From: Haloarcula marina | GTDB lineage: Archaea > Halobacteriota > Halobacteria > Halobacteriales > Haloarculaceae | Assembly: GCF_024218775.1 (NCBI RefSeq) | Contig: NZ_CP100404.1 | Span: 1-64,000 of the forward strand | Direction: 5' to 3' | Length of the DNA stretch: 64,000 nt | Shown: positions 17,709 to 18,496 of the stretch, in pieces | How positions within the stretch are numbered: position 1 is the first letter of the stretch | Layout: each line of letters starts with the position of its first letter | The notes under the pieces: model-generated | The model's input: the letters and a program-made list of their open reading frames with translations, nothing else | Databases searched by the model: none | What the model was told of the DNA's origin: nothing | Translations under genes and position numbers: made by a program

Positions 17709-17903
17709 TTACCGTTCTGGCGAGAAGATGTCCTCGATGGCGCAGTCGTAGTGGTCGGCCAGCGCGAAGGCCAGGTCCAGCGACGGGTCGTACCGGTCGC
17801 GTTCGAGGGCGTTGATGGTCTGTCGGGTGACGCCGACGGCGGCGGCGAGGTCCGCTTGGCTCTCGCCCCGTTCTTCGCGGAGGGCCGGGAGTCGGTTGTT
17901 CAT
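17709..17903 (-). CDS. XRE-family HTH regulator (small, DUF2178 partner)
   Basis: 64 aa. Nearly all of it is a Cro/C1-type helix-turn-helix (LPALREERGESQADLAAAVGVTRQTINALERDRYDPS, shown here by its key words GVTRQTI and RYDPS). Proteins of this size and type (YozG/PF01381 short form) usually sit next to a DUF2178 membrane protein, as here: its ATG overlaps the partner's stop by 4 nt. It probably represses its own operon through the operator array at 18306-18355. Confidence 0.88.
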   Translation of the reverse strand: MNNRLPALREERGESQADLAAAVGVTRQTINALERDRYDPSLDLAFALADHYDCAIEDIFSPER

Positions 17904-18295
17904 CGTTTCGCGCGCGCGACGGCGAGCATGAGACCCCACAGGGCGAACAGGCCGGTGACGAACCACGCGAGGTGTGCGAGCCACGGGGGCCAGTCGAAGA
18001 GACCGAGCGCCCACAGCGCCGTCAGCGTCGGGAACGCGACGGCCGAACTCAGGCCGACGACGGCGACGGTGTTCGCGCCCGCCTCCTGAAAGACGGTCGT
18101 GTCGCGTTCGTCGAACATGACGGTCTGCGAGCGGTGTTGGAGGACCGTGGCCGCGAGTGCGCCGACGGCGAACACCCCGACGCCGACCAGCGGATAGTCG
18201 GCGGCGATGAGGGCGACGAAGGCGAGGGTGGCGACAGCCCAGAGGCCGAAGTAGGTGCGGCGATACGTCGTCGTGGAGTGTGCGGTGGCAGTCAT
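17900..18295 (-). CDS. DUF2178-type four-helix membrane protein
   Basis: 131 aa with four hydrophobic helices (about 13-32, 36-52, 76-95, 105-125). A cytoplasmic loop after helix 2 carries the family hallmark FDERDTTVFQEAGANT (DER followed by AG). Function unknown; in many archaea and bacteria it is encoded with a tiny XRE regulator, which it may control. The first gene of the two-gene operon. ATG at 18295 lies 11 nt from the operator array. Confidence 0.85.
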   Translation of the reverse strand: MTATAHSTTTYRRTYFGLWAVATLAFVALIAADYPLVGVGVFAVGALAATVLQHRSQTVMFDERDTTVFQEAGANTVAVVGLSSAVAFPTLTALWALGLFDWPPWLAHLAWFVTGLFALWGLMLAVARAKR

Positions 18296-18305
18296 CGGGA
18301 ACCAC

Positions 18306-18355
18306 GTAAAGCTAGCTTTCCGTAAAGTTCGCTTTACACGTAAAGTGTGCTTTAC
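18306..18355 (-). promoter_or_regulatory. Three-copy palindromic operator GTAAAG-N4-CTTTAC
   Basis: Three consecutive 16-bp palindromes at 18306-18321, 18322-18337 and 18340-18355, each GTAAAG-N4-CTTTAC; the first has one mismatch in its right arm. A TATA-like TTTATGA (minus strand, 18362-18368) lies directly upstream, so the array covers the expected transcription start and the leader of the DUF2178/XRE operon. The placement fits repression by the XRE protein encoded in the same operon. Confidence 0.82.
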
Positions 18356-18496
18356 ATCAATCATAAATCTACCGGTGCATCCGACCCCGCCCGATAGCTG
18401 TCTCCGGCCGGGGACACCGGGACCGGATAGTACGGTGTGTGACCTCGCGACAGGGTCCCCCAACGTTATTTTTCGACCGCCGACGAGTGACCGCGT

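Follow-up and report, generated by a model that had tools for sequence, protein, structure and literature searches.

A 50-bp array of palindromes at 18306-18355 in the first 64,000 nucleotides of contig NZ_CP100404.1 of the haloarchaeon Haloarcula marina (the whole of this stretch is hereafter called the window) is very probably the operator, or on/off switch, of a gene pair encoding an XRE-family regulator and a small membrane protein of the DUF2178 family. The repeated unit is GTAAAG-N4-CTTTAC, and comparison of relatives in archaea, bacteria and plasmids establishes the identity of this operator, its linkage to the XRE protein, its position in the promoter and its co-occurrence with a membrane gene.

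Association of the palindrome with XRE regulators

Relatives of the XRE protein were gathered through protein searches, with no regard to the upstream DNA; Halobacteriales genomes supplied 29 of them and plasmids from many phyla 24. The DNA up to 1.1 kb upstream of each XRE gene was then searched for the palindrome, one mismatch being allowed. It was present at 38 of the 53 loci, comprising 26 of the 29 haloarchaeal and 12 of the 24 plasmid-borne relatives. Over the same loci, 59 permuted half-sites used as a control gave a mean of 0.07 and a maximum of 1, and GTAAAG palindromes with spacings of 0-3 and 5-8 nucleotides gave 0. A first-pass annotation, made from the letters of the window, had read the array as an operator and had named relatives without an upstream palindrome as the observation that would speak against it; the palindrome lies upstream of most relatives and permuted half-sites reach at most one locus in 53, which argues, by comparative evidence, that it is the operator of this XRE family and lends support to the earlier reading. 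Co-occurrence points the same way. Among 195 genomes searched for both elements, the exact tandem was found in 42 and the XRE protein in all of these 42, against 116 of the 195 overall (hypergeometric P ~8e-12, a value that ignores phylogenetic kinship), and the reversed pattern had no match in 392 genomes.

The XRE proteins linked to the operator share the recognition helix V-[ST]-R-Q-[TS]-[IV], which is common to CylR2, the repressor of cytolysin quorum sensing in Enterococcus faecalis, and to the protein of structure 9K3W. In the XRE proteins encoded beside an operator, V25, R27, Q28, E34, Y38 and S41 are nearly invariant (R27 in 167 and Q28 in 165 of 168 proteins). A Subdoligranulum plasmid (L229:1750-1800) encodes an XRE protein with the helix S-S-R-T, and its promoter carries ATGAAGTCGACTTCAT instead of GTAAAG-N4-CTTTAC. 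This single case supports the role of the recognition helix and is a candidate natural specificity swap, from which a readable code pairing helix variants with operators would be expected. As a separate observation, the XRE helices of Qipengyuania and Sphingomonas read V-S-R-Q-[SA]-V, and their promoters lack GTAAAG and contain TTGTCA/TGACAA repeats.

The array in the window and in related promoters

The array consists of two perfect palindromes (O2, GTAAAGTTCGCTTTAC; O1, GTAAAGTGTGCTTTAC) and a third copy with one mismatch (O3, GTAAAGCTAGCTTTCC); the coordinates of these and of the associated features are collected in Table 1. The three copies claimed by the first-pass annotation are thus present, exact in two cases only, and its spacings are those read in the sequence, with starts (and centers) 16 and 18 bp apart. 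Such spacing fits cooperative dimers bound on alternating faces of the DNA. A scan of the whole genome (3,739,652 bases) revealed no further palindrome with 0 or 1 mismatch, and the array is accordingly confined to the DUF2178-XRE operon. The 201-bp intergenic region was also simulated 20,000 times with a first-order Markov model; one site with at most one mismatch arose in 13 of the simulated sequences and two sites in 0. Transcription likely starts near the junction of O1 and O2, hence under the array, as judged from the TATA-like box and the usual archaeal distance between such a box and the start.

Table 1. Operator array and operon of the window
Feature	Position	Strand	Basis
O1, perfect palindrome nearest the TATA-like box	18340..18355	-	Position 3' of the TATA box kept in 37 haloarchaeal promoters
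O2, perfect palindrome, 18 bp from O1 (2-bp gap)	18322..18337	-	Sequence; relatives have a 1-bp gap
O3, one-mismatch palindrome abutting O2 (16 bp)	18306..18321	-	Among 61 relatives whose gap is 1 bp, 14 have the CTTTAC arm intact at this position
TATA-like box TTTATGA, 5 bp upstream of O1	about 18361..18367	-	Sequence and TATA-like consensus in 37 relatives
DUF2178 membrane protein, 131 amino acids, first operon gene; D62-E63-R64 after helix 2	17900..18295	-	PF09946 profile
XRE regulator (HTH_3), 64 amino acids, second operon gene; recognition helix V-T-R-Q-T-I-N	17709..17903	-	HTH_3 profile

The two-gene operon with a 64-residue XRE protein as its second product, as first annotated, is borne out by profile searches: the XRE protein matches HTH_3 (PF01381) with 54.4 bits (E=1.3e-14; curated cut-off 23) and the membrane protein matches PF09946 with 27.2 bits (E=4.3e-6; curated cut-off 22.8), a match that recurred in a whole-genome search. 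The genes overlap at ATGA, the ATG of the XRE gene lying on the DUF2178 stop codon. The predicted structure of DUF2178 has four helices (mean pLDDT, the predicted local distance difference test score, 90), and in an alignment of 40 relatives the D-E following the second helix is invariant and the R nearly so. A fold search of the model against the PDB returned no match at E<=0.001, hence no structural hint of function, and neither a profile search against PDB sequences nor a search of NCBIfam gave a match. The flanking genes in the window encode a GFO/IDH/MocA oxidoreductase and PhzF. The divergent phzF was considered as a target of the array and judged an unlikely one, its start (18497) lying about 140 bp away, with an apparent T-rich box of its own near 18467.

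The usual haloarchaeal operator consists of two perfect copies, to which only a minority of promoters adds a degenerate third one. Of 38 promoters examined, 37 have a distance of 17 bp between the perfect copies, the exception being the window with its 18 bp, and in the haloarchaeal promoters (n=37) a TATA-like consensus occupies positions -16 to -7 from the operator, centered about 10 bp upstream. A gap of 1 bp is filled by T, read in the transcribed direction, at 58 of 61 loci; the CTTTAC arm of a third copy, intact and abutting as in the window, occurs at the minority of these loci given in Table 1. In Bacillota no gap separates the two copies (16 bp), and 37 of 69 loci of this gapless type have an extra imperfect copy 28-29 bp upstream whose CTTGAC arm overlaps the -35 element TTGACA. 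Only the N4 spacing within the palindrome is rigid, the distance between palindromes being 16, 17 or 18 bp, and for this reason we infer that each palindrome is the site of one XRE dimer.

Distribution of the operator and its probable further targets

The motif is not confined to haloarchaea; other archaea and bacteria have it too. When genome contigs were scanned for the tandem, starting from DNA, at least 120 stretches came up, which are a sample and no census. The matches listed, to which the counts of tandem loci here and below refer, come from Halobacteria, Thermococcus, Thorarchaeota, Woesearchaeota, Nanoarchaeota (DPANN), Methanobrevibacter, many Bacillota and two Alphaproteobacteria. 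An XRE match lies within 1.5 kb of the tandem at 105 of 120 loci. In Bacillota it mostly begins 11-60 bp past the tandem; in Halobacteria, where DUF2178 stands between the two, it follows at a distance of about 400-460 bp. The plasmid set adds the motif in Azospirillum, Labrenzia, Eleftheria, Arthrobacter, Streptomyces, Leptolinea, Bernardetia and Carnobacterium. Within the genus of the window most genomes have neither the XRE protein nor the operator; besides the window genome, the tandem is present in G298 and G375 alone among the 25 sampled, and the system is here an accessory, patchy trait. In a tree of the XRE proteins the haloarchaeal members group together in a single supported clade, separate from Bacillota, at the low resolution of 64 columns. 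Recent horizontal transfer, considered as the sole reason for the shared operator, is countered by this separate clade (with the proviso that 64 columns resolve little), and the sharing is for that reason not attributed to recent exchange alone.

Two sets of sequences stand apart. A single viral contig (IMG/VR, 13.7 kb) carries the tandem (L205:1609-1642), with a 2-bp gap as in the window, and no XRE match was found on it. In five stretches from Mogibacterium and other Clostridiales GTAAAG-N4-CTTTAC is repeated two to five times, with no XRE match within the 8-kb stretch; two of these arrays (L105 and L189) lie directly upstream of a ribonuclease HII-like gene.

A membrane gene consistently accompanies the XRE gene, in either gene order and often coupled through ATGA. 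A hydrophobic neighboring open reading frame with DE[RLFY] is present at 92 of 105 operator loci, 86 of them with DER. Thermococcus and some haloarchaea have two DUF2178-like genes before one XRE gene, and a Pfam search finds a DUF2178 gene in Haloferax volcanii, a harmless organism that could serve as a model.

Probable additional targets vary by lineage. Some haloarchaea possess a second exact tandem away from the XRE gene, placed before hydrolase genes or small membrane proteins. At nine loci it precedes genes for a DUF3887 protein with a lipoprotein signal and an alpha/beta hydrolase, which are a probable second member of the regulon in several haloarchaeal genera; at two loci it precedes a secreted beta-lactamase-fold (PF00144) hydrolase, assigned by Pfam in one (L074) and by similar sequence in the other (L053). 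Three loci of another haloarchaeal group have a second operator directly behind the XRE gene; next comes a gene for an ABC transporter ATPase, for a small membrane protein, or for both. The XRE gene of Thermococcus has an ABC ATPase gene after it. Regulon members of these kinds in some haloarchaea (secreted alpha/beta hydrolases, the beta-lactamase-fold enzyme, the ABC transporter) would hint at a function at the cell surface. Beside these, plasmid pSVX82-2 of Haloferax lucentense (L227:1801-3789) carries an XRE/DER-protein pair, with a gene resembling that of halocin C8 at a distance of about 1 kb, an arrangement that recalls CylR beside its lantibiotic cluster.

The complete reading, which we hold to be probable, is that the array serves as operator of the XRE protein of its own operon, an autorepressor coupled to DUF2178 as membrane sensor; repression, cooperativity, sensing and the nature of the signal are the deduced parts of it. 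One XRE dimer would read each GTAAAG-N4-CTTTAC through the [ST]-R-Q-[TS] recognition helix, and two or three adjacent dimers would occupy the DNA from just past the TATA box to beyond the start site and block initiation, the DUF2178-XRE operon repressing itself. The translationally coupled DUF2178 protein would be the signal input, a role suggested by analogy to CylR1, and would alter DNA binding of the XRE protein at the membrane; its cytosolic DER segment would probably act on the XRE protein in answer to a membrane-borne signal. In some genomes the same operator may also control the secreted hydrolases or the ABC transporter.

Several observations weigh against this reading. Half of the plasmid-borne relatives (12 of 24) are without the palindrome at up to one mismatch, some of them having degenerate copies, and a sample of 242 genomes from other orders of the phylum held no exact tandem; its presence is therefore patchy. 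Repression rather than activation is deduced from the position of the operator only. The membrane partners are very divergent, and the bacterial ones mostly fall outside Pfam's DUF2178, often in no Pfam family, their kinship to DUF2178 being suggested by size, hydrophobicity and the DER motif.

The XRE protein might instead be a stand-alone autorepressor answering a cytoplasmic cue, with DUF2178 as a regulated effector (e.g., in immunity or transport) and no sensor. This would suit the link between operator and XRE protein, for which no membrane protein is required, and the further targets, which are effectors such as hydrolases and an ABC transporter. We regard it as unlikely: the membrane gene stays constant and often coupled in either order while the effectors change with lineage, the DER motif is retained at most operator loci, and a 64-residue helix-turn-helix (HTH) protein without a ligand domain needs some other input for its signal. 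Still more doubtful is a toxin-antitoxin-like pair in which the small membrane protein is the toxin and the XRE protein an antitoxin that controls its own expression. The compact two-gene unit with palindromes of autoregulatory type, the patchiness within the genus and the many plasmid-borne copies would suit it, and there is a weak similarity to Y4mF-type antitoxins; this similarity amounts to 31.5 bits against the NCBIfam antitoxin model (Y4mF/HipB-like), far under its cut-off of 71.65, and both the occurrence of the operator before hydrolase and ABC transporter genes and the loci with two DUF2178-like genes for one XRE gene speak against such a pair. That the inverted repeats at the transcript start are RNA hairpins of a 5' leader, acting by attenuation, is highly improbable, because the letters of the GTAAAG/CTTTAC arms are fixed across many lineages rather than co-varying, with N4 free to vary, and the extra bacterial copy coincides with the -35 box and is thus no part of the transcript.

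Comparison with known regulatory systems

The proposed autorepressor coupled to a membrane sensor has partial counterparts in several systems. Phage repressors of the 434/P22 type bind as HTH_3 dimers to tandem palindromic operators that overlap the promoter; they have a C-terminal dimerization domain and a wider operator spacing, whereas the XRE protein of the window is a bare 64-residue HTH protein with abutting 16-bp sites. Streptococcal pairs of a LytTR-type regulator and a membrane inhibitor are likewise two-gene units in which a membrane protein controls a DNA-binding protein, but their DNA-binding domain is unrelated to XRE and the likeness is one of analogy only. Among solved structures the best match to the XRE protein is 9K3W, a PbsX-family regulator of 65 residues with the helix V-S-R-Q-T-I-N (E=6e-15), for which no describing paper was found in a literature search. 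The literature search likewise returned no mention of DUF2178, of a GTAAAG-N4-CTTTAC operator or of haloarchaeal XRE autoregulation with a membrane protein; subscription papers were mostly outside its coverage and a prior description is possible.

Tentatively, the findings may reflect a single operator code, in which a V-[ST]-R-Q-[TS] helix recognizes GTAAAG-N4-CTTTAC and which is kept across Bacteria and Archaea, on TATA as well as -35/-10 promoters, by a membrane-linked two-protein switch that would sense membrane-active peptides or lipids, with CylR1/CylR2 as a specialized branch. A repressor-operator pair held in two domains with different promoter machinery would be a useful case for the persistence of DNA-recognition codes, and a widespread pair of unknown function gains a DNA site by which any genome can be searched, leading from an annotation of XRE plus DUF2178 to a regulon.

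The best-described analogue is CylR1/CylR2, and the pair in the window probably works like it. CylR2 (1UTX, 2XIU) is a 66-residue XRE protein with the helix V-S-R-Q-T-I-N, a bare HTH protein like the one described here, and phmmer aligns the two over residues 3-61 (E=1e-13). In both cases the regulator gene adjoins that of a small membrane protein, with three predicted membrane helices in CylR1 (PMC3709268) and four in DUF2178. In published accounts CylR1 is the presumed membrane sensor, which on meeting an extracellular peptide changes how CylR2 binds DNA (PMC3709268, PMC12304293, PMC11343131). The window differs in its archaeal host, in having the membrane gene first and, as far as its flanking genes show, in having no lantibiotic cluster, and the CylR1/CylR2 switch, hitherto tied to such clusters, would thereby be set in a wider frame.
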